Of a DNA stretch of 64,000 bases, positions 1 through 50,557 are shown in pieces. The notes beneath the pieces are model-generated. The model was given only the letters and a program-made list of their open reading frames with translations. It made no database searches and was not told the DNA's origin. This DNA comes from Pseudofrankia inefficax (GTDB lineage: Bacteria > Actinomycetota > Actinomycetes > Frankiales > Frankiaceae). A program made the translations under genes and the position numbers. How positions within the stretch are numbered: position 1 is the first letter of the stretch; each line of letters begins with the position of its first letter. The stretch is from the NCBI RefSeq assembly GCF_000166135.1, contig NC_014666.1:6696001-6760000 (forward strand). The letters run 5' to 3'.

Positions 1-465
1 CGGCTGCTTGTAGAGCTCGCCGTCGTACTCCAGCACCCCGGTCTCCAGGGCGTTCAGGAGGGCGGCGCTGTACTCCTTGAACCGGCGGCGGGACTCGCCC
101 ATCGGGACGCGGAAGCCGACGAACTCCTTCTGGCCGAGGCCACGGCCGAGGCCGAGGATCGCGCGGCCGTCGGAGAGGTGGTCGAGCACCGAGAAGCTCT
201 CGGCCACCCGCGCCGGGTCGTTCCACGGCAGGACGGTGACCATCGTGCCGAGCTTCAGCTTCGTGGTCCTGCTCGCCAGCCAGGCCAGCACCATCGACTG
301 CTGCGAGGTGAGCTGGTAGTCGGAGAAGTGGTGCTCCGAGAGCCAGACCGAATCGAAACCAACCTCTTCGGCCCGTGCTGCGAGGGCCATCTCCGACCGG
401 TAGACGTCCGCGTCGGTGACGTTGGGATCAAGATTGGCGAGTTGGAGGCCGAATCCGATGTGCAT
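1..465 (-). CDS. LLM-class F420/FMN-dependent oxidoreductase, 3' end missing
   Basis: The first 155 residues of a luciferase-like monooxygenase-fold enzyme; the C-terminal part lies beyond the window edge. It starts MHIGFGLQLANLD, continues with the family's WLSEHHF segment near residue 44 and a LGLGRGLGQKEF stretch, typical of actinomycete LLM oxidoreductases. Such proteins use F420H2 or FMNH2 as flavin cofactor to reduce or oxygenate small molecules; the substrate here is unknown. The ATG overlaps a TGAGCGCTCA palindrome, so the upstream TetR-like site could block transcription directly. It would be read after the CoA-transferase and thiolase on the same strand and may belong to that set, though the 50-nt gap and the palindrome suggest its own promoter. 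Confidence 0.85.
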   Translation of the reverse strand, partial: MHIGFGLQLANLDPNVTDADVYRSEMALAARAEEVGFDSVWLSEHHFSDYQLTSQQSMVLAWLASRTTKLKLGTMVTVLPWNDPARVAESFSVLDHLSDGRAILGLGRGLGQKEFVGFRVPMGESRRRFKEYSAALLNALETGVLEYDGELYKQP

Positions 466-476
466 GAGCGCTCACT
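463..476. promoter_or_regulatory. Class B operator-like palindrome
   Basis: CATGAGCGCTCACT contains a perfect 10-bp palindrome (TGAGCGCTCA) that overlaps the start codon of the luciferase-like gene. It matches the WGTGAG-NN-CTCACW pattern seen at five other places in the window. A repressor site is inferred. Confidence 0.45.
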
Positions 477-515
477 TTATACGTTGAGGACGGTGGGAGC
501 CAGCCCCGCTGCGGG

Positions 516-1634
516 CTACCGGACGGCGCCGGCAGCCCGCAGGCTGGTTACTTCTTCGGCCGAGAACCCCCAGTCGGACAGGGCCTCGTCGGTGTGCTGC
601 CCGGGGGCGGGCGGCGGGCCGGCAACCGCCGGCGGGGTCCGGCTGAACCGCGGGGCCGGAGCCGGCTGGACCACTCCGGCGACCTCCGTGAAGGTGCCGC
701 GGTGGCGGATGTGGGGATGGTCCGGAGCCTCGCCCGGGTCGAGAACCGGGGCGAAGCAGACGCTGGTGCCGTCGAACGTGGCGCACCACTCGTCGCGGGT
801 CCTGGTCCGGATCACCGCGGCGAGGCGCTCCTTCGTGGCCGGCCAGGACGACCGGTCGTCGGCGCCGGGATCGACGTCGGTCAGCTCCGCGAGCTGCCGG
901 CGGGCCTTGGGGTCGATCGCCCCGAGCGAGAGGTACCGGCCGTCGGCCGTCTCGTAGGCGTCGTAGAACCAGGCGCCGCCGTCGAGGAGGTTGGTGCCCC
1001 GCTCCCCCCAGTCGCCGGCCGCCCGCAGGCCGTGGATCATCCCGGACAGCAGCGCGGCACCGTCGACCATGGCGGCGTCGACGACCTGCCCCTGGCCGGA
1101 GCGGGCGGACTCGAGCAGGGCGCACACGATGCCGAAGGCGAGCAGCAGCCCGCCCCCACCGAAGTCGCCCACGATGTTGACCGGCGGCACCGGCGGGACG
1201 CCCGGCCGCCCGACCATGGCCAGGGTGCCGGCGAGAGCGACGTAGTTGATGTCGCGCCCCGGCGCCTGCGCGTACGGGCCGTCCTGGCCCCACCCGGTCA
1301 TCCGCCCGTAGACGAGTCCCGGCCGGCGGGCCAGGCAGTCGTCGGGCCCGAGCCCGAGCCGCTCGGTGACACCCGGGCGGAACCCCTCGATGAGCACCTC
1401 GGCGTGCTCGACCAGCCTGAGCACGGCCTCCCGCCCGTCGGCGTGCTTGAGGTCGATGCCCACCGACCGACGGCCGCGGGCGTTCACGTCCCAGGAGGGC
1501 GCCTCGGCACCGACGCTGTCGGCCCGGTCGACGCGGAGCACCTCGGCGCCCATGTCGGACAGCATCATGGCGGCGAACGGCCCGGGGCCGATGCCAGCCA
1601 GCTCGACGACGCGGTAGCCGCGCAGCACGCTCAT
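516..1634 (-). CDS. Class III CoA-transferase / alpha-methylacyl-CoA racemase-like protein
   Basis: A 372-aa CaiB/BaiF-family protein. The N-terminal VVELAGIGPGPFAAMMLSDM segment and the following GAEVLRVDR, the GDFGGGG motif and the YDAYETADGR segment are those of alpha-methylacyl-CoA racemase (AMACR), which inverts the C2 centre of 2-methylacyl-CoA before beta-oxidation. The motif that carries the racemase's catalytic His (GHDINY in the family) reads GRDINY here: Arg127 replaces His. The paralogue at 16688 keeps the His. The Asp of GDFGGG and the Glu of YETADG remain. The protein may therefore be a CoA-transferase or altered racemase. The start at MSVLRGYR was preferred over an ATG 39 nt upstream because the fold begins there and a class A palindrome covers the longer 5' end. 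Confidence 0.85.
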   Translation of the reverse strand: MSVLRGYRVVELAGIGPGPFAAMMLSDMGAEVLRVDRADSVGAEAPSWDVNARGRRSVGIDLKHADGREAVLRLVEHAEVLIEGFRPGVTERLGLGPDDCLARRPGLVYGRMTGWGQDGPYAQAPGRDINYVALAGTLAMVGRPGVPPVPPVNIVGDFGGGGLLLAFGIVCALLESARSGQGQVVDAAMVDGAALLSGMIHGLRAAGDWGERGTNLLDGGAWFYDAYETADGRYLSLGAIDPKARRQLAELTDVDPGADDRSSWPATKERLAAVIRTRTRDEWCATFDGTSVCFAPVLDPGEAPDHPHIRHRGTFTEVAGVVQPAPAPRFSRTPPAVAGPPPAPGQHTDEALSDWGFSAEEVTSLRAAGAVR

Positions 1635-1651
1635 ACCGCCGCCGCCTCTGA

Positions 1652-1665
1652 TAAGCGTGCGTTCA
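1652..1665. promoter_or_regulatory. Class A operator-like palindrome
   Basis: TAAGCGTGCGTTCA fits TRARCG-NN-CGYTYA in both arms and lies 17 nt upstream of the CoA-transferase start. A TetR-type repressor site is inferred. Confidence 0.5.
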
Positions 1666-1736
1666 CTCTGCAAGCCCTTCGATGCTCCGCCTCACGGGTC
1701 CCGACCTGGTCCTCGCCGGTGGGCCGACGCCCGGCC

Positions 1737-2927
1737 TCAGCTGCCCGCGGGCGCGGGGACGTCGAGGACGACGGCGGTGGCCATGCCGCCACCGGCGCAC
1801 ATCGCGGCGATCCCGATGCCGCCGCCGCGCCGGCGCAGCTCGTGGGTCATCGTGATGATCATCCGGGAGCCGCTCATGGCGACCGGGTGGCCGAGGCTGC
1901 ACCCGCTGCCGGAGACGTTCACGATCGTGTCGTCGAGGCCGAGGATGCGGGTCGTGCCCACGGCGACCGAGGCGAACGCCTCGTTGATCTCCCACAGCGC
2001 GACGTCGCCGATCGTCAGGCCGGCCCGGTCCAGCACCTTCGGGATCGCGAGCGTCGGGGCCAGGCCGGTCTCCTCCGGCAGGACGCCCACCGAGGCCCAG
2101 GCCCGGATGACGCCCAGCGGCTCAAGCCCCTGCCGCTCGGCGAACTGGCTGTCCGCGAGCACCATCGCCGCGGCGCCGTCGTTGACGCCGGACGCGTTGC
2201 CGGCCGTGATGCTGAAGCCGTCGATCTCCGGGTGGATGGGCTTCAGCGCGGCCAGCCGCTCCAGCGTGGTCGTCCGCCGCGGGTGCTCGTCGACGGCGAA
2301 CGTCAGCGTGGTGCCGTCGCGCCGCGCCACCTCCAGCGGGAAGATCTCCTCGGCGAAGCTGCCCGCGTCGATCGCCGCGACCGCCCGCTGGTGCGACCGC
2401 AGCGCCCAGGCGTCCATCTCCTCGCGGGTGAGGCCCGCCTGCACCGCCGCGTTCCAGCCGACGGTGATCGACATGTCCCGGCACGGCGCCTGGGGCGTCT
2501 CGGGGTGGCTGTAGGCGAGCCAGTCCTCGTCCCAGTCGTCGGTACCGGGAAACCGCCAGCGGACACGCGGCTTCGTGGAGGCCGACTGCACACCCCCGGC
2601 GATGACGACGCGGTCCATCCCGGAGCGGATCGACGCGGCAGCACTCTGCACGGCGGCGAGGCCGGAGGCGCAGTGCCGGTTGTGGGCGACGCCCGGTACC
2701 TGCGGGATGCCGGCGTTCACCGCCGCGTACCGGGCGATGTCGCCACCGCCGTACAGCGACTCGCCGAGCACCACGTCGTCTACGAGCGACGGGTCGACCC
2801 CGGACCGGTCGAGCGCCTCGGCCACCGCCCGGGTGCCGAGCTCGAACGCGCTCACCTCCGTGAGTGAGCCCTTGTACGCCGTCCCGATCGCCGTCCGCGC
2901 CGTCGCCACAATCACCGCCTCAGACAC
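1737..2927 (-). CDS. Thiolase family protein (acetyl-CoA acyltransferase)
   Basis: A 396-aa condensing enzyme of the degradative thiolase family, which cleaves 3-ketoacyl-CoA with CoA in the last step of beta-oxidation. Visible active-site parts are Cys86 in NRHCASGLAAVQ (acyl acceptor), EINEAFAS, His347 in SLGHPVAMSG and Cys377 in AAMCAGGGMA. The block before the His reads GSGCSLGHP rather than GGAIALGHP, which is common in actinomycete side-chain thiolases. The GTG start at VSEAVIVATARTAIG was chosen because homologues begin there; the frame stays open upstream but is low-complexity. The CoA-transferase follows on the same strand, with a 102-nt gap that holds a class A palindrome. Confidence 0.9.
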   Translation of the reverse strand: MSEAVIVATARTAIGTAYKGSLTEVSAFELGTRAVAEALDRSGVDPSLVDDVVLGESLYGGGDIARYAAVNAGIPQVPGVAHNRHCASGLAAVQSAAASIRSGMDRVVIAGGVQSASTKPRVRWRFPGTDDWDEDWLAYSHPETPQAPCRDMSITVGWNAAVQAGLTREEMDAWALRSHQRAVAAIDAGSFAEEIFPLEVARRDGTTLTFAVDEHPRRTTTLERLAALKPIHPEIDGFSITAGNASGVNDGAAAMVLADSQFAERQGLEPLGVIRAWASVGVLPEETGLAPTLAIPKVLDRAGLTIGDVALWEINEAFASVAVGTTRILGLDDTIVNVSGSGCSLGHPVAMSGSRMIITMTHELRRRGGGIGIAAMCAGGGMATAVVLDVPAPAGS

Positions 2928-3238
2928 CGCGGCTGCCCTCCTGGGTCTCGTGGCTCGGTCGCGTGACTGCCTACCGGCCGTTGGGTCGCTTCCCATCGAT
3001 CTGGGTCGCGTCGAGCTGCGTTGCGGCCAACCGTGTTGCGCCAACCGTGTAGGCGGCGAACCGAGTTGCGAAGTATCTGCTCACTCACGATAGGGACGGA
3101 GCGACCGGCGGCGCAACCGGGTCGTGGCCGCGACCGCTGTGGCCCCCCTGACACACTGCGACCGCGAGCTTGACGGGACGCCACCCTCCGCCATACTAAA
3201 TGAGTACTCGCTCATTAGCAGATCGAAGGTGACGGGCC
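2928..3238. other. Divergent intergenic region, thiolase / amidohydrolase
   Basis: About 310 nt between divergent starts. It holds a near-perfect tandem repeat (GTTGCGGCCAACCGT then GTTGCGCCAACCGT, 3020-3048), a CTCACTCAC segment at 3080-3088 and the class A palindrome at 3201-3214. No RNA gene or credible small gene was seen. Confidence 0.6.
3201..3214. promoter_or_regulatory. Class A operator-like palindrome
   Basis: TGAGTACTCGCTCA, extended by AA and TT to an 18-bp imperfect palindrome AATGAG...CTCATT, lies 24 nt before the amidohydrolase start. It is nearly identical to the site at 50544-50557. Confidence 0.55.
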
Positions 3239-4435
3239 GTGGACTACGCTCTGATCGACGCGGACGGGCACTACTACGAGCCGGACGACTGCTTCTCCCG
3301 GCACATCGAGGCCCGGTACAAGGACGCGACCATCCGGGTCGACCGGGCCGAGGACGGCCTGGGCCGGGTCTTCGTCGGCGACCGGCGCACCTTCATGAGC
3401 GTCATGCCGGGCGACTACGCCTCGGCCCCCGGCGCGTTGCAGGGACTGTTCGCCGGCGGGGTCGCGGACGGGTTCGCCCATCGCGAGGTGCTCAACGCCA
3501 GGGACTACCCGGCGTTCACCACGCGGGCCGAGCGGCTCACCCTGATGGACTCCCAGTCCGTCGAGGCCACGATCCTGCTGCCGACGCTCGGCATCTCCGT
3601 CGAGCGGGACCTGGAGCACGACGTCGAGCTCAGCTACGCGAGCCTGCGGGCCTTCAACCGTTGGCTGGAGGAGGACTGGGGCTACGCCGCGCAGGAGCGG
3701 ATCTTCGCGGTGCCACTGCTGTCACTGCTCGACATCGACCACGCGGTCGCCGAGCTGCGCCGGGTGATCGACGCCGGCGCGCGGCTGGTCCATCTGCGGC
3801 CCGGGCCCGTCGGCCACCGGTCCCCCGCCGACCCGGTCAACGACCCGTTCTGGGCGCTGTGCGCCGAGGCCGGGGTGCCGGTCGTGTTCCACACCTCGAA
3901 CTGCGGCTACGCCGACCTCTACGGGACGCACTGGTCGGAGGACCCGCGCAACCCGTCCCACCTGCAGTCGCCGTTGCAGTGGGCGCTGTGCAACACCGAG
4001 CGGCCGATCGTCGACACCATGATCGCGCTGACCCTGCACAACCTGTTCGGCCGCCACCCGGACCTGCGGATCCTCTCGATCGAGAACGGCAGCAGCTGGC
4101 TGCGCCCACTGCTCAAGACCGTCGACAAGGCCGCCTCCCTCGGCCGGCGCGGACCGATGATCGGTGGGAGGCTCCCGGCGAAGCCCAGCGAGGCGCTCAC
4201 CGATCACCTGTGGGTCGTCCCGTTCCCGGAGGACGACGTCGACGACCTGCTCGACGTCCTCGGGCCGGACCACGTCCTGTTCGGCTCCGACTTCCCGCAC
4301 CCCGAAGGCCTGCGGGAGCCGCTCGACTACGCGACGAGCCTGGGCCGCCAGGACCCCACCACCACCCGCAAGGTTCTGCGCGGCAACACCGCCCGGCTGC
4401 TCGGCATCCCGGACCGGGCGCCAGCGGCGGTCTGA
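3239..4435 (+). CDS. Amidohydrolase-2 (ACMSD/LigW-type) family protein
   Basis: A 398-aa TIM-barrel metal enzyme of the amidohydrolase-2 family, whose members include aminocarboxymuconate-semialdehyde and resorcylate decarboxylases and ring-opening hydrolases. Metal-site elements are D9-x-H11 in IDADGHYYEPDD, the strand His in VVFHTSNCGY and the terminal Asp in LFGSDFPHPEG. The substrate cannot be read from sequence. It starts with GTG just after the class A palindrome and is monocistronic, ending in a strong hairpin. Three paralogues lie at 21810, 34754 and 61869. Confidence 0.87.
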   Translation: MDYALIDADGHYYEPDDCFSRHIEARYKDATIRVDRAEDGLGRVFVGDRRTFMSVMPGDYASAPGALQGLFAGGVADGFAHREVLNARDYPAFTTRAERLTLMDSQSVEATILLPTLGISVERDLEHDVELSYASLRAFNRWLEEDWGYAAQERIFAVPLLSLLDIDHAVAELRRVIDAGARLVHLRPGPVGHRSPADPVNDPFWALCAEAGVPVVFHTSNCGYADLYGTHWSEDPRNPSHLQSPLQWALCNTERPIVDTMIALTLHNLFGRHPDLRILSIENGSSWLRPLLKTVDKAASLGRRGPMIGGRLPAKPSEALTDHLWVVPFPEDDVDDLLDVLGPDHVLFGSDFPHPEGLREPLDYATSLGRQDPTTTRKVLRGNTARLLGIPDRAPAAV

Positions 4436-5264: not shown

Positions 5265-5978
5265 TCAGCCCGCGTCGACGGTCGCGGCGGACGCCACGAC
5301 CACCTCGCGGACCGCCAGGTACTCCGACCGGCCGAACAGGCCGCCCGTGGGCGGGTTCTGCTGGAACCAGCCGACCCGGCCGCGCAGGCCGGCGAGATCG
5401 GCGAAGTAGACCTCGTTGACGGCGTCGTAGACCGGCTCGTCGCCCGTCGGGTGCGGATGGTTCTGGACGTAGGCCTGGCCACGGGCGGCCTCGGGGATCA
5501 CCGCGGCCGCGCCGGACGTCTGGACCACGCCGCCGTGCTCGGCCCACAGACGGGAGAACTCGGCCCGGGTGAGGCCATCGGCCCGCCGGGACAGGGCGAT
5601 GTGCTTGAAGGCGCCACCACCCGACGCGGCGTGGGCCGCGAGCCAGTCGGCCCCGCGCGCCACCCGTTCCCGCGCGACGACGCTGCTCGTGACGAGGCCG
5701 GCCGCCGGGGCGTCGGTGGCCGCCTGCCAGGCCTCGAAGCGGGCGAGGCACTCGGCGTCGGGAAACCACAGAAAGCTGACGACGTCGTGGCTGGTGCCCG
5801 AGCCGGGGCGCTCGGCCGGACCGGACAGGCCGGCCAGCACGGTGGCCAGCGTGACCCGGGCCGGCCGCGCGTCCGGCGGCGCCTCGGCCGCGCGCCGCGC
5901 CTCCCGCCGCCAGGCGGCCTCGAACGCGTCCGCCGACCACGCCGGGCCGGCCGCCCCGAACCGGATCAGCTTGATCAT
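5265..5978 (-). CDS. EthD-domain protein (dimeric alpha-beta barrel)
   Basis: A 237-aa protein with two ferredoxin-like halves: MIKLIRFGAAG at the N-terminus and, from about residue 130, the EthD-like unit GAFKHIALSRRADGLTRAEF followed by SRLWAEHGG. EthD proteins are small accessory factors or enzymes in oxidative degradation clusters; the reaction here is unknown. The ATG overlaps the stop of the ferredoxin oxidoreductase (ATGA), so the two are translationally coupled. This start is preferred over one 48 nt upstream because it matches the domain boundary. Confidence 0.75.
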   Translation of the reverse strand: MIKLIRFGAAGPAWSADAFEAAWRREARRAAEAPPDARPARVTLATVLAGLSGPAERPGSGTSHDVVSFLWFPDAECLARFEAWQAATDAPAAGLVTSSVVARERVARGADWLAAHAASGGGAFKHIALSRRADGLTRAEFSRLWAEHGGVVQTSGAAAVIPEAARGQAYVQNHPHPTGDEPVYDAVNEVYFADLAGLRGRVGWFQQNPPTGGLFGRSEYLAVREVVVASAATVDAG

Positions 5979-8900
5979 GCGCCGGTCGATCCCGCTGGCA
6001 GCAGGCCCGCGACGTCGGCGCGCCACCGCTCGACGGCCGCTTCCTTGATCGGCCCGTAGCCCTTGATCGCCATCGCCGACTCGGCGGCCCGCACCTGGTC
6101 GGCGTAGGGCAGCTCGCCCGCCAGGACGGTGCGCAGCAGCCGCTCGTACTCGACGACGACCGCCCGCTCGGTGCGCCGGTCCGGGTCGAGGCCGAACAGG
6201 TCGAACGGGGTCCCGCGCAGCCGGCGAGCCGCCCGCAGGCCCCGGAACGCGACCGCGTAGGGCCGGCCGGCCGGCAGCTTGTGCTTGAGCCCGAAGCGCC
6301 GCAGCGTCGGCGGATGCAGGTGGTAGGTGACGCGGTACGGGCCGTCGATGCCGAGCTCGGCCGCCGTCTCGGCGTGGTCCGCCAGCAGGTGCAACCGGGC
6401 GACCTCGTACTCGTCCTTGTAGGTCAGCACCTTGAACCAGCTCTCGGCGACGGCCCTGGTCAGGGCCCAGCCGTGGCCGGCGTCGTCACGTCCGGCGGCC
6501 TCGGCCACCAGCGCGAGGAACCGGCCGGCCCGGCGGGCGTCCTGGTAGTCGACCGTCTGCGCGGCGCGCCGGCCGAGCAGCTCGCTCAGGTCGGCCGGCA
6601 GGTCCGCGGGCAGTGCGGCCCCGTCAAGAAGCCCGGCGGCGGCCGCGAGCGCGTCCGGCGACGGGTCGAAGATGCTCGGCTTCGTCACCGTGGGAGTGTC
6701 CCCGCCGACGGCCGCGAGCGCGGCCTCGACGGCCGCCGGGTCGTGGACGGCCCAGCGGCCCCAGACGAAGGCGGCCCGGTTGTCGGTCGCGGCCCGACCG
6801 GTGCGGCTCATCGCCTTCTCCAGGTCGGCCGGCCCGAGCGGCAGGCCACCAAGCTGGAACGCGGCCCCGAGCAGCACGATGTTGGCCAGCAGCTGGTTGG
6901 CGAAGACCTGCTCGGCGATCCGCTTCGCGTCCAGGAACGCCGCCTGTCCACCCCCGACCCGCTCGGAGATCGCGGCGCGCATCGCCGCGTCGTCGGGCGA
7001 GGCGATGTCACGTTGGAGCATCGCGGCCGTCGGAACCACGGTCACGTCGACGACCGCCACGGTCTCCCCCGGCCGCACGGTCGCCAGGTGCTTGGCCGAC
7101 GCGGCCTGCAGGATGTCGCCCGACAGGTAGAGGTCGGCCCCGCCGGCGCCGACCGTCGGCGAGCCGAGCGCGCCGTCCTGGCCGGCCACGGACAGCTGCA
7201 GGTGCGAGACGACCGCGCCGGCCTTCTGCGAGAGCCCGGTCTGGTCGACACCCGCGACGGTCAGGCCGGCCGACTTCGCGGCGGTCGCGAGGATCCGGGC
7301 GGCGGTGATGACGCCGGTACCGCCGACGCCGGTGAAGTAGATGCCGAACCGGCCGTCCACGACGGGCCGCACCGGTTCCGGCAGCCCGCCCGACGGCAGC
7401 GCCGGGCGCGGGTGCGCCTTGGGCTTCGCCGCCTGCGTGCGCGGCGAGCGGCGCAACTTGCCGGGCTTGCGCGGGGTGATCGTCACGAACGACGGGCAGT
7501 CGCCCTCGAGGCAGGTGTAGTCGCGGTTGCAGGACAGGTCGTCCACCCGGCGCTTCTCGCCGAGCTCGGTCTGATGCGGCAGCACGGACAGGCAGTTGCT
7601 CTTCACCGAGCAGTCGCCGCAGCCCTCGCACACCGCCTCGTTGATGACCACGCGGCGCGGCGGCTCGGGCAGCAGGCCACGCTTGCGCAGCCGGCGTGAC
7701 TCGGCGGCGCAGCGCTGGTCGTAGATGACCACCGTCACGCCGGGCACCCCGCGCAGCTCCTCCTGCACCTCGTCCAGCCGGTCGCGGCCGAGCACCTTCA
7801 CGCCGGGGGCGAACCGGGCCCGGCGGCCGTAGTGCTTCGGCTCCTCGGCGCAGACGACGACCCGCTCGACGCCCTCGGCCTCCAACATCCGGGTCATCGC
7901 CGGGACGTCCATCAGGCCGACGACGTCCTGGCCGCCGGTCATCGCGACCGCCGCGTTGTAGAGGATCTTGAAGGTGACGTTGGCCCTGGCGGCGACGCTG
8001 GCGCGGATCGCCAGGATGCCGGAGTGGGAGAGCGTCCCGTCACCGAGGTTCTGGATCAGGTGTGGCTCGTCCACGAACGGCGCGAGGCCGATCCACGGCA
8101 CGCCCTCGGCGCCCATCGGCGTCGGTGGGAGGCTCTTCATGCCCTGGTGCCGGGCCTCGAAGTACATGATCCCGTGACAGCCGACGCCACCGCCGACCAG
8201 CGCACCGTCGGGGAACACCGTCGAGCGGTTGTGCGGGCAGCCGCTGCAGAAGCCCGGCGGCCGGGCCGGCAGGTCGAGCACCGGCAGCGCCAGACCGGGC
8301 GACGCGAGCAGCGGCAGCGACCGCCGCCGGGGTGACCCGCCCACCGAGGCGCCGTTGGCGGAAGCGCCCACGGCCGCGCCGACCGTGGCCAGCTCGGGCA
8401 GGACCCGGCGCAGGACGGCCGCGACCTTCGTCGCGTCCAGCTCGCCGGCGGCCCCGACGAGGGCGCGCCCGGCGCTGTCCCGCTTGCCGGCGAGCCGAGT
8501 GGCGTCGCCGGCCTCGTGCAGCACTGCGCGCAGCTGCGTCTCGACGAACGGCCGCTTCTCCTCGATGACGACCAGCTCGTCGACGGAGCGGGCGAACTCC
8601 AACGCCGTCTCGGCGACCAGCGGATAGGTCATCCCGAGGCGCAGGATCCGGACGCCGAGCGTCTCCAGCTCGGCGGCGCCGAGCCCGAGGTCGCCCAGCG
8701 CCTGCATCACGTCGAAGTAGGTCTTGCCTGCGCAGACGATGCCGAGGCGTGCGCCGGGCGCGGCCCCGCTGACCCGGTCGAGGCCGTTGTGCCGGGCGTA
8801 GGCCGCCGCGGCGCGCAGCCGCAGGTCGAGGACCTGCTCCTCCTGCGCGGGCGCGGTGTGCGGCCCGACCGCGGTCCCGGGCAGGTGCCGCCACGGCCGC

Positions 8901-12257: not shown

Positions 12258-12271
12258 AGTAACCGCTCACT
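12258..12271. promoter_or_regulatory. Class B operator-like palindrome
   Basis: AGTAACCGCTCACT is symmetric at 12 of 14 positions and lies upstream of the alcohol dehydrogenase operon. Confidence 0.4.
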
Positions 12272-12390: not shown

Positions 12391-12404
12391 TGTGAGCGCT
12401 CTGT
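12391..12404. promoter_or_regulatory. Class B operator-like site
   Basis: TGTGAGCGCTCTGT, an imperfect class B palindrome about 77 nt before the SDR start. Confidence 0.4.
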
Positions 12405-13585: not shown

Positions 13586-14161
13586 CTACTCGCTGCCGCT
13601 GTCGCGGGGGCTGGTGAGCTCGACCAGGGTGCGCAGGAACTGGTCCTGGCCGACGCCGTTGAACGGGTGGCCCTGCATCGTCGAGAACAGGTGGTAGCCG
13701 CCGAGCGCGGCGACCGCGATCGCGTCGACGACGTCCTGGCCGCGCGGGTCGGCGAGGACCGGGCGCGCCAGCGCCGCCCAGATCGCCGTGCGAAGCTCCG
13801 GAACTCTGTCCCCCTCGTTGAGCATGAGGCGGAACAGCCGGTCGAAGCGGCGCAGGTCGTGCAGCAGTTGGTCGTACGTGCGCAGCCGGTGCTCGACCGG
13901 GTCGCCGGACGCCGGCAGCCCGGCCCTGGCCTGCGCCATCTCGTCGCGCAGCCGGCTGACCTCCCGGTCGACGGCCGCCGTGAGCAGCGCCTCCTTCGAC
14001 GGGAAGTGCCGGTAGAGGCTGCCGGTGCCGACGGCGAGGCCGACCCGGCGCTCGACCTCACTGATCGTGGCCCCGCTGAACCCGGACTCGGCGAAGACGT
14101 CCATCGCCGCTTCGAGAATGCGGTCCCGGGTCGTTCCGCGCGCGCCCTGCCGTGTGGTCAC
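13586..14161 (-). CDS. TetR-family transcriptional regulator
   Basis: A 191-aa repressor. The N-terminal helix-turn-helix is residues about 11-60 (ILEAAMDVFAESGFSGATI, then GSLYRHFPSKEALL). The C-terminal half is the ligand domain, of unknown ligand. It follows the P450 at 14229 on the same strand with a 67-nt gap. The P450 promoter carries a class C palindrome that also occurs at 16597 and 26825, so this protein is a candidate for binding class C; that link is inference. Confidence 0.88.
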   Translation of the reverse strand: MTTRQGARGTTRDRILEAAMDVFAESGFSGATISEVERRVGLAVGTGSLYRHFPSKEALLTAAVDREVSRLRDEMAQARAGLPASGDPVEHRLRTYDQLLHDLRRFDRLFRLMLNEGDRVPELRTAIWAALARPVLADPRGQDVVDAIAVAALGGYHLFSTMQGHPFNGVGQDQFLRTLVELTSPRDSGSE

Positions 14162-16612: not shown

Positions 16613-16666
16613 CACCCGCCGACCCGACGGGCAACCGAACCGACGATCCCGGCGCGCCGGAGTGAG

Positions 16667-16680
16667 TGAACGTACACTCC
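16667..16680. promoter_or_regulatory. Class A-like palindrome
   Basis: TGAACGTACACTCC fits the class A consensus at 12 of 14 positions. It can also be read as GAGTG-AACGTA-CACTC. It ends 7 nt before the GTG of the CoA-transferase, so a bound repressor would cover the start region. Confidence 0.45.
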
Positions 16681-19226: not shown

Positions 19227-19297
19227 CAGGTACCTCACGCTCACGTACGCGGTCATACCGACCGAGGCGGGCCATCTGGGCACAGAATACCAATAAG

Positions 19298-19311
19298 TGA
19301 GCCCTCGTTCA
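19298..19311. promoter_or_regulatory. Class A operator-like palindrome
   Basis: TGAGCCCTCGTTCA, with one mismatch to TRARCG-NN-CGYTYA, lies 72 nt before the P450 start. Confidence 0.5.
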
Positions 19312-36035: not shown

Positions 36036-36049
36036 AGAGCGAACGCTCA
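36036..36049. promoter_or_regulatory. Class A operator-like palindrome
   Basis: AGAGCGAACGCTCA, symmetric at 12 of 14 positions (only the end pair fails), 80 nt before the amidohydrolase start at 35956. Confidence 0.5.
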
Positions 36050-36085
36050 CATGCTAACGGAGATGGACGCACCAGCGCCAGATCC

Positions 36086-37249
36086 TCAGGCGAACCTGTG
36101 CGCAAGCCGGGCCCGGTGGGCCGTCGGCGACCCGAACAGCGCGCGGTTGCACGCGGCCCGCTTCAGGAAGCGGTGCACACCGCTTTCCCACGTGTAGCCG
36201 ATACCGCCATGGAGCTGCATCGCTCGGCCGGCCACGTCGACGGCGGCCCCGCCCACGTGGGACTTGGCCCGCGAGACGGCGATCTCGGCCGCCGCCAGGT
36301 CCCCGTCGAGCCCGCCCGGCCCGAGCGCCGCCAGCGCGCCCACGGCGTCGGCGACCAGGCCCCGGCTCACCGAGACCTGCACGAACATGTCGGCGCACCC
36401 GTGCTTGACGGCCTGGAACGAGCCGATCGCCCGGCCGAACTGGTGGCGCACGCCGACGTAGGCGACGGTGGCGTCCAGCATGGCCTCGGCGACGCCCAGG
36501 CTGTCGACGGCCAGGGCCAGCGCGCCCCGGGCGAGCAACGTCCTGACCGCCGCCTGGCCGTCACCGCCGAACCGGTGGACCTCGCCCACCGTCGCGTCGG
36601 CGACCGTGACGGTGCCAAGCCCGCGGCTGACGTCGAGAACGGGCTGGTCGGCGATGCGCACGCCGGGCTGGCCCGGCTCGACGGCGACGAGCACCGGCTC
36701 GCCCTCCGGCGCCGCCGCGAGCAGCAGCACCGTTCCCGCCCCGGCCGCGTCCGGCACGAAGTCCGCGTGCCCACTCACCCGCCAGGCACCACCCGCCGCG
36801 GCGACGAGCTGGAACGGGAGCGCGCCGGGCGCGCCCACGGCCCCGTCGCCGGTGGGCAGCGCGAGCGCGAGGCGCGGCGCGCCGGTCGCGAGGGCGCGTA
36901 GCCAGCCGTCCCGCGTCTCCCCTGGCGCCAGCGCCAGCAGCGCGCCGGCACCGAGCACCGCGGTGCCCAGGTAGGGAGCCCGCGCCGCGGCGCGGCCGAG
37001 CTCCTGGCAGACGACGGCCGTCTCGGCGAAGCCCACGCCGGCGCCGTCGAGCTCGTCGGGCACCTCCAGCCCGAGCCAGCCCGCGTCCGCGAAACTCGCC
37101 CAGCCGTCGGCCGCGACGTCCTCGTCGCCGGCGGGCAGACCAGCCAGCAGGTCGCGGGCGACCGTCCGCAGCTCGGCGCGCAGCTCCTCGGCGGCGGCCC
37201 GCTCCTCGGCGGTCGCGGCGATCGCTGTCGTGTGAGTACTCACACTCAT
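36086..37249 (-). CDS. Acyl-CoA dehydrogenase-like subunit (lacks G-helix Glu)
   Basis: A 387-aa acyl-CoA dehydrogenase-fold protein, last of four in one operon. The FAD site (VCQELGRAAARAPYLG) and the C-terminal HGGIGYTWESGVHRFLKRA are normal. At the helix where the base sits in its partners it reads ALALAVDSLGVAEA, with no Glu. It is the beta-type chain of the alpha2beta2 heteromers known from actinomycete sterol catabolism (ChsE/FadE pairs); its partner would be the 404-aa protein, whose stop it overlaps (TGATG). A palindrome of class B type lies inside codons 2-7. Confidence 0.85.
   Translation of the reverse strand: MSVSTHTTAIAATAEERAAAEELRAELRTVARDLLAGLPAGDEDVAADGWASFADAGWLGLEVPDELDGAGVGFAETAVVCQELGRAAARAPYLGTAVLGAGALLALAPGETRDGWLRALATGAPRLALALPTGDGAVGAPGALPFQLVAAAGGAWRVSGHADFVPDAAGAGTVLLLAAAPEGEPVLVAVEPGQPGVRIADQPVLDVSRGLGTVTVADATVGEVHRFGGDGQAAVRTLLARGALALAVDSLGVAEAMLDATVAYVGVRHQFGRAIGSFQAVKHGCADMFVQVSVSRGLVADAVGALAALGPGGLDGDLAAAEIAVSRAKSHVGGAAVDVAGRAMQLHGGIGYTWESGVHRFLKRAACNRALFGSPTAHRARLAHRFA
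37231..37244. promoter_or_regulatory. Class B-like palindrome inside a gene start
   Basis: TGTGAGTACTCACA is a perfect palindrome, in codons 2-7 of the acyl-CoA dehydrogenase at 36086. It matches class B, but codon content (Ser-Thr-His-Thr) may make it by chance. Confidence 0.25.
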
Positions 37250-44685: not shown

Positions 44686-46395
44686 TCAGCTGGCCGTGAC
44701 GAGCTGGCCGGGGCGCGCGTCGGTCAGCTCGTCGTCCTCGACCAGGACGGCGCCGTTGACGAGGGTGTAGTCGTAGCCACGGGCCCGCTGCACGAACCGC
44801 TGGGCGCCGAGTGGAAGGTCGGCGCGCATCACCGGAGTGTCCAGGTCGAGCCGGTCCAGGTCGAGCACGTTGACGTCGGCGAACGCGCCGGGGACGAGCA
44901 CGCCACGGTCGTTGATCCCGAACAGCTGGGCGCCTTCGAGGGTCAGCTTGTGCACCGCGTGCTCGATGCCGAGCAGGCCGCGCTCGCGGACCCAGTGCTT
45001 GAGCAGGTAGGTGCTCTGGCCGGCGTCCATCGTCATCGCGACGTGCGCGCCGGCGTCCGCGACCCCGACGACCACGTCGGGGTTCGTGAGCATGGCGGCG
45101 ACGGCGTCGAGGTCCTGGTTGAGCACGGGGTAGTAGAGCAGCCCGTTCCCCGCGGTCTCGGTCAGGAAGGCGAGGAAGGCCGCCGCGGGCGAGACGCCGC
45201 GGCGGGCGGCGTCGGCGGCCAGGCTGTTCTCGGGTCGCACGTCGTAGCCGGCCGGGCCGGGCCGCAGCAGGTAGAGCCGGGCCGGGTCCTTGGGCGCGAG
45301 GGGGCCGGCGAGGTTGGCCGGCTCGTCCGCCGCCGCGACCAGGCGCGCGCGGACGGAGCCGTCGGCGATCGCGGCGAGCCGGTCGGCCAGCGGGCGCGAC
45401 CAGACCTCGGCCCAGACCGGCAGGTTCTCGTAGGGAGTCCGGGCCGCCAGGCCGTAGTGGATGCCGATGCCACGGGCGGACGTCTGCGGGCGCAGGTCGG
45501 CGCCCCGGGCCCGGGCGGCGCGGACCTGGTCCATCACCCAGGACCACAGGTCGGGCCGGCGGTCGCTCTGGGTGATCGCGAAGGTGAGGGGGCGACCGGA
45601 GGCACGGCTGACGTCCTCCATCCAGGCGAGCTCGGCGACCGAGTTCTGCCGGGTGGCGCCGTCGCGCTCACCGATGCGCGGGACGACCTCGATCGTGCCG
45701 CGGCCGCGGGCGGCGAGCGCCCCCGCGATCGCGGCCAGCTCCTCGGGGCGGGCGTAGGTGCCCGGCACCGGGCGGCCGTCGGGGACCGTGTGCAGGAAGC
45801 TGCGTGAGGTGGAGAAGCCCAGCGCGCCCGCGTCGATCGCCGCGCCGACGACGGCGGCCATCGCGGCCAGGTCGTCCTCGCCGGCCGGGGTGTCGTCGAG
45901 GCCGCGCTCGCCCATGACGTAGTACCGCAGCGCGCAGTGGCCGACGAGGCCGCCGACGTTCACCCCGAGATCGCGGCCGCCGAGGGCCCGCAGATAGTCG
46001 CCGTAGGTCTCCCAGCCCCAGTCGCCGAGGCCCTCCATGATCGTGTCGGCGGGGATGTCCTCGACGGCCTCCATCATCTCCGCGAGGTAGCGCTCCTGGC
46101 CGGCGCGGACCGGCGCGAACGTGACCCCGCAGTTGCCGAGAACGAGCGTCGTCACCCCGTGCCAGCTGGACGGGCTCGCGACGGGGTCCCAGAACAGCTG
46201 GGCGTCGAGGTGGGTGTGGATGTCGACGAAGCCGGGGGTCACCAGCCGGCCGGCGGCGTCGAGCTCCCGGCGGCCGCGCTCGACGACGGTGCCGACCGCG
46301 GTGACGCGGTCGCCGTCGATGGCGACGTCGGCCGGCCGGGCTGGGACCCCGGTGCCGTCGACGACCTCACCGCCGCGGATCACGACGTCATGCAT
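44686..46395 (-). CDS. D-aminoacylase / N-acyl-D-amino-acid deacylase-type amidohydrolase
   Basis: A 569-aa amidohydrolase-3 protein. The H60-x-H62 metal motif in DIHTHLDAQLFWDP, the bridging Cys89 in LGNCGVTFAP and FADVNVLDLD at the C-terminal sandwich are those of D-aminoacylases and dihydropyrimidinase-like enzymes. It would remove an acyl or amide group. ATG at MHDVVIRGG. A class B palindrome lies 38 nt before the start, and a divergent TetR is 250 nt away. Confidence 0.88.
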   Translation of the reverse strand: MHDVVIRGGEVVDGTGVPARPADVAIDGDRVTAVGTVVERGRRELDAAGRLVTPGFVDIHTHLDAQLFWDPVASPSSWHGVTTLVLGNCGVTFAPVRAGQERYLAEMMEAVEDIPADTIMEGLGDWGWETYGDYLRALGGRDLGVNVGGLVGHCALRYYVMGERGLDDTPAGEDDLAAMAAVVGAAIDAGALGFSTSRSFLHTVPDGRPVPGTYARPEELAAIAGALAARGRGTIEVVPRIGERDGATRQNSVAELAWMEDVSRASGRPLTFAITQSDRRPDLWSWVMDQVRAARARGADLRPQTSARGIGIHYGLAARTPYENLPVWAEVWSRPLADRLAAIADGSVRARLVAAADEPANLAGPLAPKDPARLYLLRPGPAGYDVRPENSLAADAARRGVSPAAAFLAFLTETAGNGLLYYPVLNQDLDAVAAMLTNPDVVVGVADAGAHVAMTMDAGQSTYLLKHWVRERGLLGIEHAVHKLTLEGAQLFGINDRGVLVPGAFADVNVLDLDRLDLDTPVMRADLPLGAQRFVQRARGYDYTLVNGAVLVEDDELTDARPGQLVTAS

Positions 46396-46432: not shown

Positions 46433-46446
46433 AGTGAGTCCTCATT
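46433..46446. promoter_or_regulatory. Class B operator-like palindrome
   Basis: AGTGAGTCCTCATT, upstream of the D-aminoacylase. The 13-mer AAGTGAGTCCTCA recurs exactly upstream of the LivHMG gene at 50459. Confidence 0.55.
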
Positions 46447-46562
46447 TCATAACGAAGCCTAGGATTTCGGCTCCGCGCATGTCAAGCGACCGACATCGAT
46501 GTCGAGATCAGCGCGGTAGCGGTCGGGGCGCTTGCCAAAACTCTCATGATCGGGCGGGTAAG

Positions 46563-46576
46563 ATAGCGTACGTTCA
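46563..46576. promoter_or_regulatory. Class A-like palindrome
   Basis: ATAGCGTACGTTCA, with CGTTCA matching a class A arm and a GCGTACG core, lies 70 nt before the TetR start. Confidence 0.4.
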
Positions 46577-46646
46577 TTCACCTGCCGACTGGGCTCCGTA
46601 CTCGGAGGAGCTCCGTATCAGGAGAGCCACCGCTACTGGAGGACCG

Positions 46647-47348
46647 ATGGCCGAGCAGCCGACCGTGGAGCAGACGGCGGCGTCCGACGGCGCGAGCGAG
46701 GCCGCCGAGGCCAGGCCGCGGCCGCGACGGCTGACCGCCGAGGCCCGCAAGAGCTCCATTCTGAAGGCGGCCCGGCAGGCGTTCGTCGAGACCGGCGACA
46801 TGAACGGGACCACCATCAAGCAGATCGCCGAACGCGGCGGTATCAGCGAAGGTGTGATCTACCGGCACTTCGAGAGCAAGGACCAGCTCTTCTACGAGGC
46901 GATCTTCGAGCCGCTGCGCCAGGCGGTGGACGAGCTGGTCGCGGCCACCGAGGTGGTCGACCTCGACGAGCCGCTCACACCGGAACGCCAGCTGGAGACC
47001 CTCAACGGCCTGTACCGGCAGCTCATCGCCACCCTGGAGGAGATCCTCCCCCTGCTCGGGCTGGTGCTGTTCGGCGACCCGAAGGTGGCGCGCCGTTTCT
47101 ACCGCAAGCACTTCACCGTCGCGATGGACCGGCTGGCCGAGGCCTGGCGCGAGGTGGAGGACAGGTACGGCTTCGAGTTCGAGTCGCCGGACATCTCCGC
47201 CCGGGCCGTCATGGGCATCGCGCTCGTGCTCGCGCTGGAAAGCCGGCACAACGACCTGTTCAACAAGGACCGAGCCGTCACCCTGGTCTCCCAGAGCACG
47301 GTGAAGGGCTTTTTCCCGACCCTTGAGCCGACCCGCCGCCGCCGCTAA
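46647..47348 (+). CDS. TetR-family transcriptional regulator
   Basis: A 233-aa repressor with a 30-residue acidic N-terminal tail, then the helix-turn-helix at about 51-80 (TTIKQIAERGGISEGVIYRH) and a helical ligand domain. The start follows GGAGGA. A class A palindrome is just upstream and a class B site lies on the other side towards the D-aminoacylase, so it is the main candidate for recognising one of these. The ligand may be an acyl-CoA; inference. Confidence 0.9.
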   Translation: MAEQPTVEQTAASDGASEAAEARPRPRRLTAEARKSSILKAARQAFVETGDMNGTTIKQIAERGGISEGVIYRHFESKDQLFYEAIFEPLRQAVDELVAATEVVDLDEPLTPERQLETLNGLYRQLIATLEEILPLLGLVLFGDPKVARRFYRKHFTVAMDRLAEAWREVEDRYGFEFESPDISARAVMGIALVLALESRHNDLFNKDRAVTLVSQSTVKGFFPTLEPTRRRR

Positions 47349-47364
47349 CCCAGGCCGCCGGGGA

Positions 47365-47464: not shown

Positions 47465-50338
47465 CTATCCCGCCACCGGAGCGATCGGGCCGCCGGCCTC
47501 CACGACCGTCTCGGCGGCCGGCTCCGGCTCGGCGGCTGGCTCGCCCTGCGCCTCGCCGCTGAGCTTGCCCAGATAGGCGGCGCGGACCGCCGGGTCACAC
47601 AGCACCTCGTCCGGCGAGCCCGACGCGATGACCCGGCCGAAGTCGAGCACCACCACGTGGTCGCAGGTCGCGGCCACCACGTCGATGTTGTGCTCGACCA
47701 GCAGCACGGCGGCGCCGGACTGGCGCGCGAGCAGGCGGAACAGCTCGCTGGCCGTGCGTCGCTCCGAGCCGTTCAGGCCCGCGGCCGGCTCGTCGAGCAG
47801 CACCGCCGCCGGCCGCTGCGCGACCAGACGGGCGATCGCCACCATCCGCCGCCGGCCCTGCGGCAGGTCGGCCACCACGGTGTCCAGCACGTCGTCGAGC
47901 CCGAGCAGGGTGACGGCCGCGGCCGCCGCGTCCGACAGCACCCCGCGGCGCGGCCAGAACAGGTCCCGCACGTAGGCCAGCGGGCCCCGGCCGTCCAGGC
48001 CGGTGAGGACGTTCTCGCGGACCGACAGGTCGTCGAACAGCTCCAGGTTCTGGAACGTGCGCCCAAGGCCGTGGCGGGCGCGGGCCGGTGCGCGCAGGGC
48101 GCTGATGTCCCGTCCGAGCAGCTCGACGGATCCGCCGGACGTCCTGGTGAAGCCCGTCACGGCGTCGATGAGGCTGGTCTTGCCGGCGCCGTTCGGCCCG
48201 ATCACCCCGACCACGCGGCCGGCGGCCAGCTCGAAGGACACCCCGTCGACGGCGACCGCTGTCCCGTAGGTCACCCGGATGTCGCGGGCGACGAGCACCG
48301 TCTCGCCGGCGGGAACGGGGCAGCTCGGCTCGAAGGACACCGGACCACCCGCCGTCGCGGCGGCGGCACCCGCGTGACCGCCGTCGCCGGCCGCCGGCGC
48401 CGGGCCGCGCCGCGCGGCGCGCGCCACCAGCCGGACGACGGCGTCCTTCAGCGCCGCCTGGGCCGGGACGATGCCGCTCGGCGAGCGCACCATCGCGTCG
48501 AGCACGACGAGCCCGGTCGCGATCGAGAGCCACGCGTCGATCGAGTCGACGCTCAGCAGGTCGGAGATGGCGGTCGCGACGACGCCGCCGACCGCGGTCG
48601 TCGCGGCGAACACCGCGCCGGCGACGAAGCCGACCCCGCCGACGACCGTGAAGGCGAGCACCGAGATCGACCGGAAGACCCCGAAGTCGGTGAAGTCCGC
48701 GAGCTGGAACTGGAAGGCCGACAGCGCGCCGGCGAGCCCGGCGATGCCGGCCGAGATGGCGAAGGCACCGAGCTTGGTGCCGGGCACCGACACGCCGAGG
48801 GCGGCCGCGCCCCGTTCGTTGGCCCGCACCGCGAGCAGCCGCCGTCCGGCCTCACCGCGACGTAGGTTCAGCACCGCCAGGCCGCACAGGACGAAGGCCG
48901 CGATGCACACGTAGGCGAACCGGTCGGGATGCGCGGACGGGCTGAGGTCGAGGCCGAACAGGTTCGGGCGGTGGATGTGCAGCCCGTCAAGGCCGCCGGT
49001 CATCTTCGGCTGGCTGAGCACCAGGTTCTCGACCGCGAGGGACAGGCCCAGCGTGACGATCGCCAGGTTGACGCCGCGGACCCGCACGGCGGGAGCACCG
49101 AAGACGACTCCCAGCAGCACGGCCGCCGCGGTGCCGACGATCAGGCAGACCAGGAACGGCAGGTGCAGGTCGCTGCTGGCCCGGGCGGCGGCGAACGACC
49201 CGAAGCCGGCGAGCGCCGCGCACGCGACGCTGATCTGCCCCGCGTAGCCGGTGACGACGACGACGGACAGACCCAGCAGACCGAACAGCGCGCTGTTGGT
49301 CATCGCCGCCGACCAGGACGGGGCGGCGAACAGCGGGATCGCCACGGCGGCGAGGACCCAGACCAGCCCGGTCACCGGGCGCAGCCGGCCGCTGCCCGCC
49401 CGCGGCAGCCGGCCGCTCAGGGCCTCGCCCCGCCCGGGCATCGCCGCGCCGCCGAGGACCACGGTCACGATGATCACGGCGAACGGGACGGAGGAGATGA
49501 CACCGTTGTTGATGCTGTAGCGACGCATCACCGACTCGGCGACACCGAGCGCGAGCCCGATGGCGACCGTCGTCCACACGGCGTTGAACCGACCGACGAG
49601 CGCCGCCGCCATCGCCGGGATCACCAGCAGGGTGAGCGCGTCCGGCGTCAGCCCGATGACCGGGATCAGCAGGATGCCGGCGAACGCGGCCATGGCGCCG
49701 CCGACGCCCCAGGTGATCAGGCCGGTGGGGTGCGGGGAGATGCCGATCCCGCTGGCGGCGGTCGGGTTCTCCCGCAGCGCGGTCGCGTTCATCCCGAGCT
49801 TCGTCCGCGAGAACATCAGCGACAGCCCGACGGCGAGCCCGATCGTGACGACCAGGATGGCCAGGGTGTCGTAGGTGACCAGCCCGCCCAGAATCTTGAT
49901 CTTGCCCCGGCCGAACAGCGGGGGCAGCAGGTGGGACTCGGTGCCGTACCGCTTCACGACCGCGCTCTGCAACAGCAGCATGAGGCCGAGCGTGGCGACC
50001 ACCTTGGCCATGTCCGGGACGTTGCGCAGCAGCCGGACCACGAGCAGATAGAACAGCAGCCCCAGCACCGCGCCGCTGGCCACGCCGATCAGCATCGCGG
50101 GCGCGACCGGCAGCGAGGCGACGGCGCCACTGCTGGTGGTGCCGCCATAGAGGCCGGCGCCGCCCTCGCTACCGGCGTGCAGGTCCCAGAAGACGTAGCT
50201 GCCGACCATGCCGATGGCGCCCTGGGCGAAGTTCAGGACGCCCGAGCCCCGGTAGACCGCGACGACGCCGAGCGCGACGAGCGCGTACGCGCCGCCGCCG
50301 GCTAATCCGATCAGGGCGAACTGCCAAAGCTGCGACAA
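47465..50338 (-). CDS. LivH-LivM-LivG three-domain fusion ABC transporter
   Basis: A 957-aa protein that joins three normally separate Liv subunits. Residues 1 to about 300 are a LivH-type permease (LVALGVVAVYRGSGVLNFAQ). Residues about 320-640 are a LivM-type permease (LFGLLGLSVVVVTGYAGQIS). From about 675 on there is a LivG-type ATPase, with Walker A GPNGAGKTS near 711, LPQGRRRM as signature near 823 and Walker B VLLDEP near 842. It would import branched-chain amino acids or related acids with a LivK (33287) and perhaps LivF (4499). TTG start after GGGAGGAA. Confidence 0.9.
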   Translation of the reverse strand: MSQLWQFALIGLAGGGAYALVALGVVAVYRGSGVLNFAQGAIGMVGSYVFWDLHAGSEGGAGLYGGTTSSGAVASLPVAPAMLIGVASGAVLGLLFYLLVVRLLRNVPDMAKVVATLGLMLLLQSAVVKRYGTESHLLPPLFGRGKIKILGGLVTYDTLAILVVTIGLAVGLSLMFSRTKLGMNATALRENPTAASGIGISPHPTGLITWGVGGAMAAFAGILLIPVIGLTPDALTLLVIPAMAAALVGRFNAVWTTVAIGLALGVAESVMRRYSINNGVISSVPFAVIIVTVVLGGAAMPGRGEALSGRLPRAGSGRLRPVTGLVWVLAAVAIPLFAAPSWSAAMTNSALFGLLGLSVVVVTGYAGQISVACAALAGFGSFAAARASSDLHLPFLVCLIVGTAAAVLLGVVFGAPAVRVRGVNLAIVTLGLSLAVENLVLSQPKMTGGLDGLHIHRPNLFGLDLSPSAHPDRFAYVCIAAFVLCGLAVLNLRRGEAGRRLLAVRANERGAAALGVSVPGTKLGAFAISAGIAGLAGALSAFQFQLADFTDFGVFRSISVLAFTVVGGVGFVAGAVFAATTAVGGVVATAISDLLSVDSIDAWLSIATGLVVLDAMVRSPSGIVPAQAALKDAVVRLVARAARRGPAPAAGDGGHAGAAAATAGGPVSFEPSCPVPAGETVLVARDIRVTYGTAVAVDGVSFELAAGRVVGVIGPNGAGKTSLIDAVTGFTRTSGGSVELLGRDISALRAPARARHGLGRTFQNLELFDDLSVRENVLTGLDGRGPLAYVRDLFWPRRGVLSDAAAAAVTLLGLDDVLDTVVADLPQGRRRMVAIARLVAQRPAAVLLDEPAAGLNGSERRTASELFRLLARQSGAAVLLVEHNIDVVAATCDHVVVLDFGRVIASGSPDEVLCDPAVRAAYLGKLSGEAQGEPAAEPEPAAETVVEAGGPIAPVAG

Positions 50339-50459
50339 CTGCTCTTCCTCCCGGCGGCACCCCCGCGGCGGGCGGGGGAAGGCTGGTGCGGTGACCCCGG
50401 CCAGGACCAGTGCCGGCGATCGCGGGACAGAGCGTAACCGTGGTCACAGGCCGTTCTCA

Positions 50460-50473
50460 AGTGAGTCCTCACT
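50460..50473. promoter_or_regulatory. Class B operator palindrome
   Basis: AGTGAGTCCTCACT, perfect 6-bp arms around TC, about 120 nt upstream of the LivHMG start. Confidence 0.6.
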
Positions 50474-50543
50474 AATTTATGGCCCCGGGCCAGGTCAGAA
50501 TGGCCCCGGTGGGCCGGCCGGTCGTCCCAACCGCGCAAGCTAG

Positions 50544-50557
50544 CGAGTACTCGCTCT
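50544..50557. promoter_or_regulatory. Class A operator-like palindrome
   Basis: CGAGTACTCGCTCT, with 12 of 14 positions as in 3201-3214, and a perfect AGCGAGTACTCGCT shifted by two. It lies 51 nt before the EthD start. Confidence 0.55.

Follow-up and report, generated by a model that had tools for sequence, protein, structure and literature searches.

KstR is the mycobacterial TetR repressor of lipid and cholesterol catabolism (PMC1995591). It is autoregulated, recognizes a 14-bp palindrome and governs catabolic operons of which some are clustered with its own gene and others are scattered. Its sites lie between divergent genes, some of them in pairs and a few overlapping coding sequence, and the sites that overlap or lie inside coding regions were taken to suggest that polymerase progression is blocked (PMC1995591). 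Here we analysed a 64,000-nucleotide stretch of the Pseudofrankia inefficax chromosome (the window; bases 6,696,001–6,760,000 of the single 8.8-Mb contig), for which an original prediction had proposed that two classes of short palindrome mark most catabolic operons as the regulon of one or two TetR proteins. We found one 14-bp palindrome, AGTGARYRYTCACT, and comparison of genome sequences makes it very probable that the TetR protein encoded at 46647–47348 (TetR 46647) represses its own gene and a large catabolic regulon through it, in a design like that of KstR.

The TetR 46647 system resembles KstR in its regulator, its operator length and the placement of its sites, with the palindrome standing before many catabolic operons and also in the promoter of the regulator itself (at 46433 and 46565, and in 13 of 18 relatives). 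It differs in the core operator (TnnAACnnGTTnnA in KstR versus AGTGARYRYTCACT here), in gene set and in substrate, and TetR 46647 did not qualify as a KstR orthologue, the NCBIfam KstR model not being among the 12 families that match it at E ≤ 1e-5. BkaR of mycobacteria is likewise an autoregulated TetR protein with two palindromes in a divergent promoter; unlike the present system, it has the operator core GTTA(N)T(N4)A(N)TAAC, a set of about 10 to 12 genes and a link to branched-chain keto acids (PMC3920632). The Rv0575c-Rv0576 intergenic sequence, which BkaR does not bind, contains AGTGAGCGCTAAC, close to the motif described here, and the authors allow that this may be the motif of another, unidentified regulator (PMC3920632). 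TetR proteins of the FasR, FadR and PfmR type are among the nearest solved folds of the TetR 46647 model in the matches listed, and some of these entries are titled acyl-CoA complexes; however, with query-normalised TM-scores of about 0.55–0.61 and 14–21% identity the ligand is not predictable from the fold. Searches of the open-access literature by sequence and by topic gave no paper on this regulator among the matches listed.

A likeness in the DNA word itself was seen with SlmA of E. coli, a nucleoid occlusion factor with a TetR fold that binds GTGAGTACTCAC, blocks FtsZ assembly and is described as seemingly not regulating gene expression (PMC4423959, PMC3116907). SlmA binds as a dimer of dimers (PMC4423959), and its sites, of which the E. 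coli chromosome carries about 50 outside Ter, lie mainly in coding regions (PMC3116907). Its operator has nearly the same letters as the motif here, including the TAAGTGAG flank, and its consensus probe AAGTAAGTGAGCGCTCACTTACGT matches the motif with its flanks (PMC4423959). The recognition helices of SlmA and TetR 46647 are also similar (ISEGVIYRHFESK versus VSEAALYRHFPSK, with SE..[IL]YRHF.SK in common), whereas the two proteins share only 31% identity over 49 aa.

All 13 sites named in the original prediction are present, exactly at the given place or no more than 2 bp away, and on rechecking, the 13-mer at 46432 and 50459 is indeed identical and the sites at 3201 and 50544 do agree at 12 of 14 positions. 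The division into classes A and B did not hold up. In its original spelling the class A consensus shows no enrichment in the window (19 matches at up to two mismatches with 18.6 expected; 49 of 100 shuffles reach 19), and site 50544 is absent from its 19 matches. The class B consensus is mildly enriched (10 matches versus 4.0 expected; 2 of 100 shuffles reach 10). The class A sites fit AGTGARYRYTCACT and are the same site read off-register, and we dropped the separate classes. When each of the 13 sites was scored with a model built from the other 12, ten were clear, with 0.00–0.10 chance matches expected per 64 kb (E); 46563 and 12258 were marginal when taken alone and 12391 was unsupported on its own (Table 1). 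Site 37231, offered as a possible operon-front site, fits the motif but falls within the opening codons of a gene for an acyl-CoA dehydrogenase. A further candidate at 63139, from a mismatch scan, was dropped, as it is not among the 20 matches scoring >13 that are described below.

The motif also emerged without a prior. An expectation-maximization search of intergenic DNA from TetR 46647-type loci outside Frankiaceae gave AGTgAacGCTCACTcA with a log-likelihood ratio of 229, versus 42 and 44 for shuffles; the same search on the P. inefficax island gave only a partial motif, gagTGAtcGCtgacTT (119 versus 45 and 45). Reversed sequence gave back the reversed motif and is invalid as a control, so the two shuffles alone count here. 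From the relatives (95 distinct sites scoring >14.5, both strands counted), the core is A-G-T-G-A-[GA]-[CT] and then the mirror image of this, and both flanks are A/T-rich. Strict counting of 5-mer palindromes did not recover the motif because the sites are imperfect. A sequence-only profile model of low power gave five matches at E ≤ 10 (1.04–9.52), all inside the island.

Because the scoring model was trained on 13 window sites, the independent tests are the relatives. Their loci were fetched by similarity to TetR 46647 alone, without use of the motif. The 32 loci obtained (23 genomes, nine of the loci being second copies from the same contigs) held 146 matches >11.5 versus 13 in reversed sequence, with at least one match in each. 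The nine loci from outside Frankiaceae held 43 matches >13 versus two reversed, with overlapping registers counted twice in a few places; of the 43, 40 are placed at –10 to 250 bp from a start and one is intragenic.

Gene order is reshuffled across the relatives, yet the same gene families carry sites. In 19 rearranged relatives, a site lies no more than 260 bp upstream of 90 of 118 target orthologues and of 13 of 143 other genes. Among these targets are the genes that match the aldehyde dehydrogenase (ALDH) 50962, with a site in 0 of 10; the ALDH found in relatives next to the operator is entered under its best match, g30044 (9 of 11, with the site about 50 bp ahead of the gene; this row bears on operator 50542), and without the g30044 row the targets come to 81/107. 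On that reduced count, targets and other genes compare as 26/39 versus 11/37 outside Frankiaceae, 32/40 versus 0/39 in other Frankiaceae genera and 23/32 versus 2/63 in Pseudofrankia. With the TetR gene also removed, the values are 23/31 versus 11/37 (p 3e-4), 26/34 versus 0/39 and 19/28 versus 2/63, respectively.

The occurrence of the motif follows that of TetR 46647, both in Parafrankia and Frankia and in actinobacteria that are more distant. The gene is found in 15 of 35 Frankiaceae genomes, and these have a mean of 7.5 strict motif matches (control 1.07) versus 1.65 (control 0.60) in the 20 genomes without it (Mann-Whitney p 1e-6, phylogeny uncorrected). The DitZ-like target (≥87% identity) occurs in 14 of the 15 TetR-positive and none of the 20 TetR-negative genomes. 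In a wider sample of 246 genomes of the class, one of the 225 outside the family carries TetR 46647, and this carrier has eight strict matches (control 2), the most among the 21 genomes of its own family. At the level of sequence there is one motif, which co-occurs with TetR 46647 and which precedes genes of the same families even where genomes are rearranged. The second TetR gene, 13586–14161, was rejected as shared regulator on its distribution (Table 1); of the "one or two TetR proteins" originally proposed, only TetR 46647 tracks the motif.

TetR 46647 has an N-terminal TetR_N helix-turn-helix (PF00440, 49 bits; gathering threshold 24), and its AlphaFold model of eight helices (mean pLDDT 77) fits the all-helical C-terminal ligand and dimer domain of the family. 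The best Foldseek matches among those listed are TetR-family regulators, and the nearest named relatives are from Pseudofrankia and Frankia isolates (90–99% identity). The recognition helix is almost invariant among orthologues. A recognition-helix pattern picked out nine helices in the fetched part of the P. inefficax genome, and TetR 46647 alone has SE at these positions, which is compatible with this protein reading this DNA word and is no proof of it.

Where the sites lie relative to genes is consistent with repression. In 91 of 198 site–gene pairs (a site between divergent genes was counted for both) the site centre is 30–90 bp ahead of the start codon. An alignment of nine regions upstream of the TetR gene showed the TetR-side operator conserved in all nine, and the amidohydrolase-side operator together with a promoter-like TTGACA-N18-TAGNNT pair conserved in eight (absent in L071). 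In the window this pair is TTGACA-N18-TAGGCT at 46485 to 46456 (minus strand), with nine bases between the –10 hexamer and operator 46433; the operator would thus cover the likely transcription start, which fits repression. Binding by TetR 46647, repression as its effect and the inducer are inferred. In this reading the palindromes would be operators of a single TetR repressor: a TetR 46647 dimer, or possibly two dimers, would bind AGTGARYRYTCACT around transcription starts of its own gene, of some dozen operons that make up a 94-kb island and of satellite operons elsewhere. Once bound, TetR 46647 would stand in the way of RNA polymerase. Its release by a small molecule, for which analogy suggests an acyl-CoA intermediate of the pathway, would allow joint induction of uptake (Liv-type ABC transporters) and breakdown enzymes.

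The comparative evidence supports the candidate regulon well and makes it larger than the window. We scanned 364 kb of contiguous chromosome at a threshold score of 13, with reversed sequence as control, and obtained 20 matches versus two. Nineteen lie between 6,653,059 and 6,746,555 (the 94-kb island) and one at 6,575,345; none was seen in the 133 kb to the right. Thirteen are in the window (12 of the originally named sites and 3072) and six are in the left flank, at five positions within 43 kb of the window, so the original prediction was made from the right half of the island. The whole genome was covered by pattern and profile scans, and the motif weights were applied to the window and to stretches that total about 0.6 Mb. 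Genome-wide pattern scans exceeded the backward control (85 rows versus 34; 110 versus 75). In 26 stretches of the same genome, mostly chosen for holding matches, there were 28 sites >13, of which 22 are intergenic, and nine of these 22, the distal sites, adjoin genes that match island proteins by BLAST: ALDH (74%), P450 (68%), short-chain dehydrogenase/reductase (SDR; 63%), amidohydrolase (56%), a Liv-type transporter and others. The loci of the nine distal sites hold no relative of TetR 46647 (phmmer E ≤ 0.001). Elsewhere, L020 has two strong sites at 1,935,888 and 1,936,131 and a weaker one at 1,936,113, with the nearest called gene >600 bp away. The pair 530,806/530,981 (L019) was kept out of the regulon; the 14-bp model passes only the first of the two, their longer shared flanks are unlike the motif, and they probably belong to another regulator.

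Several observations weigh against the proposal that TetR 46647 governs the regulon. The relatives are not independent of one another, and five of the 18 have no site as close as 260 bp to the start of the TetR gene. One genome of the same genus (G031, 6.9 Mb; L050, G031:C1:1143154-1143852) keeps the TetR protein (96%) and both its operators and lacks the DitZ-like target. Genome G009 has five strict matches and no TetR 46647, the next genome in the family of the distant carrier has six (control 2), and some TetR-negative genomes elsewhere have as many as that carrier, mostly with high controls (G096 10, control 12; G143 8, control 4). Promoter-like hexamers lie near only 15 of the 198 site–gene pairs (1.2 in shuffled flanks), so that where the sites lie with respect to transcription starts is for the most part deduced from distance. 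Six of the 28 sites in the stretches of the P. inefficax genome are inside genes, probably by chance. Distal sites 1,901,908 (L025) and 7,382,307 (L034) each have a GntR/FCD regulator gene nearby, whose product may be what regulates locally.

The same facts can be read as one regulon bound by a different TetR or by a GntR protein such as that encoded at 40704, with TetR 46647 merely one of the targets. The genome offers many candidates, with 66 TetR-like matches at E ≤ 0.001 including TetR 46647 itself, and there are GntR/FCD genes in the island (40704, and 6,659,728–6,660,384 in its left part) as well as near the two distal sites. Distribution argues otherwise. The motif was found at loci fetched solely by similarity to TetR 46647, and motif counts per genome track that protein, while TetR 13586 is confined to Pseudofrankia. 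GntR 40704 has relatives in seven of 19 relative loci, none of them outside Frankiaceae and none with a site upstream, and GntR 6,659,728 has none in the 19, most of which span only about 20 kb; both are weakened as shared regulators. We consider this explanation unlikely. The GntR/FCD regulators near 1,901,908 and near 7,382,307 and the one at 6,659,728–6,660,384 are related to each other.

Much less probable are two further explanations. Given that the printed SlmA consensus nearly equals the motif with its flanks (PMC4423959, PMC3116907), the sites might be targets of an SlmA-like nucleoid-occlusion protein. However, TetR 46647 scores 30.8 bits against the SlmA family model (NCBIfam NF007015, cut-off 120 bits), no protein in the genome exceeds this cut-off (best 47.6 bits), and the sites cluster in one island and in promoters, whereas those of SlmA are mainly in coding regions and spread outside Ter (PMC3116907). 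We therefore rejected SlmA as the binder, and hold this explanation to be extremely improbable. The palindromes might also be due to chance, or be kept only because young intergenic DNA has not yet diverged, as the chance-level result for class A as written and the failure of strict 5-mer counting could suggest. Recovery of the motif de novo outside the family and the persistence of site–gene pairs through rearrangement speak against this, as do sites that have changed and remain palindromic around the same start codon: in three other Pseudofrankia (G030, L064 and L065) the acyl-CoA dehydrogenase orthologue has its start codon overlapped by another palindrome. Chance or lack of divergence is thus very improbable. 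Repression by TetR 46647 remains the explanation that we favour, and the sites to which it would apply are listed in Table 1.

Table 1. Regulator genes and candidate operators. Positions are those of the window; E is the leave-one-out number of chance matches per 64 kb; counts of relatives are orthologues with a site no more than 260 bp upstream.
Feature	Position	Strand or adjoining gene	Evidence
TetR-family regulator, 233 aa, proposed autoregulated repressor	46647..47348	+	TetR_N; 18 orthologues at 69–99% identity; two sites in own promoter
Second TetR gene, not assigned as regulator	13586..14161	–	6/35 Frankiaceae genomes, all Pseudofrankia
Operator	463..476	Luciferase-like gene (minus), called start 465; site touches start codon	E 0.10; orthologue preceded by site in G030 and L079 (2/2)
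Operator	1654..1667 (originally 1652)	Before CoA-transferase III 516–1634 (minus)	E 0.10; kept in G030 (1/1)
Weak operator	3072..3085	Between thiolase 1737–2927 (minus) and amidohydrolase 3239–4435 (plus)	Score 13.6; G030 site at equal place
Operator	3199..3212 (originally 3201)	Before Amidohydro_2 gene 3239–4435 (plus)	E <0.03; 4/6 relatives
Operator	12258..12271	Between alcohol dehydrogenase (ADH) 11005–12081 (minus) and SDR 12481–13296 (plus)	E 0.77, marginal alone; kept in G030 and G019; relatives with site: SDR 7/8, ADH 5/8
Possible second operator	12391..12404	ADH/SDR promoter region	E 6.9, not significant alone; equivalent between SDR and ADH genes of G019 scores 13.1
Operator	16665..16678 (originally 16667)	Before alpha-methylacyl-CoA racemase-like CoA-transferase 16763–17932 (plus)	E 0.03; 1/2 relatives
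Operator	19296..19309 (originally 19298)	Before P450 17991–19226 (minus)	E 0.03; 2/2 relatives
Operator	36038..36051 (originally 36036)	Before DitZ-like Amidohydro_2 gene 34754–35956 (minus)	E 0.06; 13/13 relatives
Operator	37231..37244	In first codons of acyl-CoA dehydrogenase 36086–37249 (minus)	E 0.10; 3/4 relatives
Operator	46433..46446	Between Amidohydro_3 44686–46395 (minus) and TetR gene	E <0.03; Amidohydro_3 with site in 11/11 relatives
Operator	46565..46578 (originally 46563)	Adjoining TetR gene start	E 0.58, marginal alone; conserved block in 9/9 alignment rows
Operator	50460..50473	LivHMG fusion 47465–50338 (minus)	E <0.03; 4/4 relatives
Operator	50542..50555 (originally 50544)	Divergent ORF/ALDH/P450 operon 50624–53761 (plus)	E 0.03
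Left-flank positions, two sites		Between an amidohydrolase and a LivHMG fusion	
Left-flank position		Between thiolase and hydroxyisobutyrate-dehydrogenase-like gene	
Left-flank position		Between ChsH2-like and luciferase-like genes	
Left-flank position		Before an Amidohydro_3 gene	

By Pfam, the window encodes luciferase-like monooxygenases, CoA-transferases, thiolases, amidohydrolases, acyl-CoA dehydrogenases, P450s, Rieske oxygenases, aldehyde and alcohol dehydrogenases and Liv-type transporters (enzyme names are taken from Pfam, NCBIfam or Protein Data Bank titles). The EthD gene originally placed at 50561–50965 was not substantiated, with no Pfam family found there. The best solved relatives of amidohydrolase 34754 are DitZ and PtmU3, that of CoA-transferase 16763 is alpha-methylacyl-CoA racemase, and that of two P450s is a CYP125 (chain title CYP125MRCA), one of the two being also near P450cin. 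The Dit and Ptm names presumably belong to diterpenoid metabolism; a search of the literature on DitZ and diterpenes gave no mention of DitZ among the matches listed. Together with a ChsH2-like protein and thiolase, these relatives point to a methyl-branched ring compound, for example a terpenoid, as substrate, which we offer only as a lead.

The island and its surroundings have other features. LivH-, LivM- and LivG-type domains are fused in one protein in three cases, of 957 aa (window 47465–50338), 988 aa (6,653,339–6,656,305; scanned over its first 887 residues) and 893 aa (L029 1827–4508), and each fusion adjoins an operator. A 1226-aa homologue of indolepyruvate ferredoxin oxidoreductase (5975–9655), encoded inside the island, is above two NCBIfam subfamily cut-offs, and a single open reading frame at 56603–58285 combines a pyridine-nucleotide-disulphide oxidoreductase domain with a methyltransferase domain.

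If these findings are borne out, TetR 46647 would switch a breakdown-gene set of about 94 kb on and off jointly in Pseudofrankia and its relatives. A large catabolic island of Frankia-type actinobacteria, of which no description turned up in the literature searched, would thereby become accessible from one point: it would have one regulator gene, one operator usable in sensors and a defined gene list for the substrate hunt. More tentatively, and with the balance of probability against it, one TetR lineage may run a transferable terpenoid-type regulon in Frankiaceae, Thermomonospora, Actinomadura, Trujillonella and Acidimicrobiales with the DNA word of SlmA. If so, gene control in one lineage and chromosome-coupled division control in another would rely on a similar recognition helix and a near-identical operator, and two dimers may occupy the operator here, as they do in SlmA. 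How TetR proteins that share a DNA word reached different functions is a question for which the match to the SlmA operator provides a clean case.

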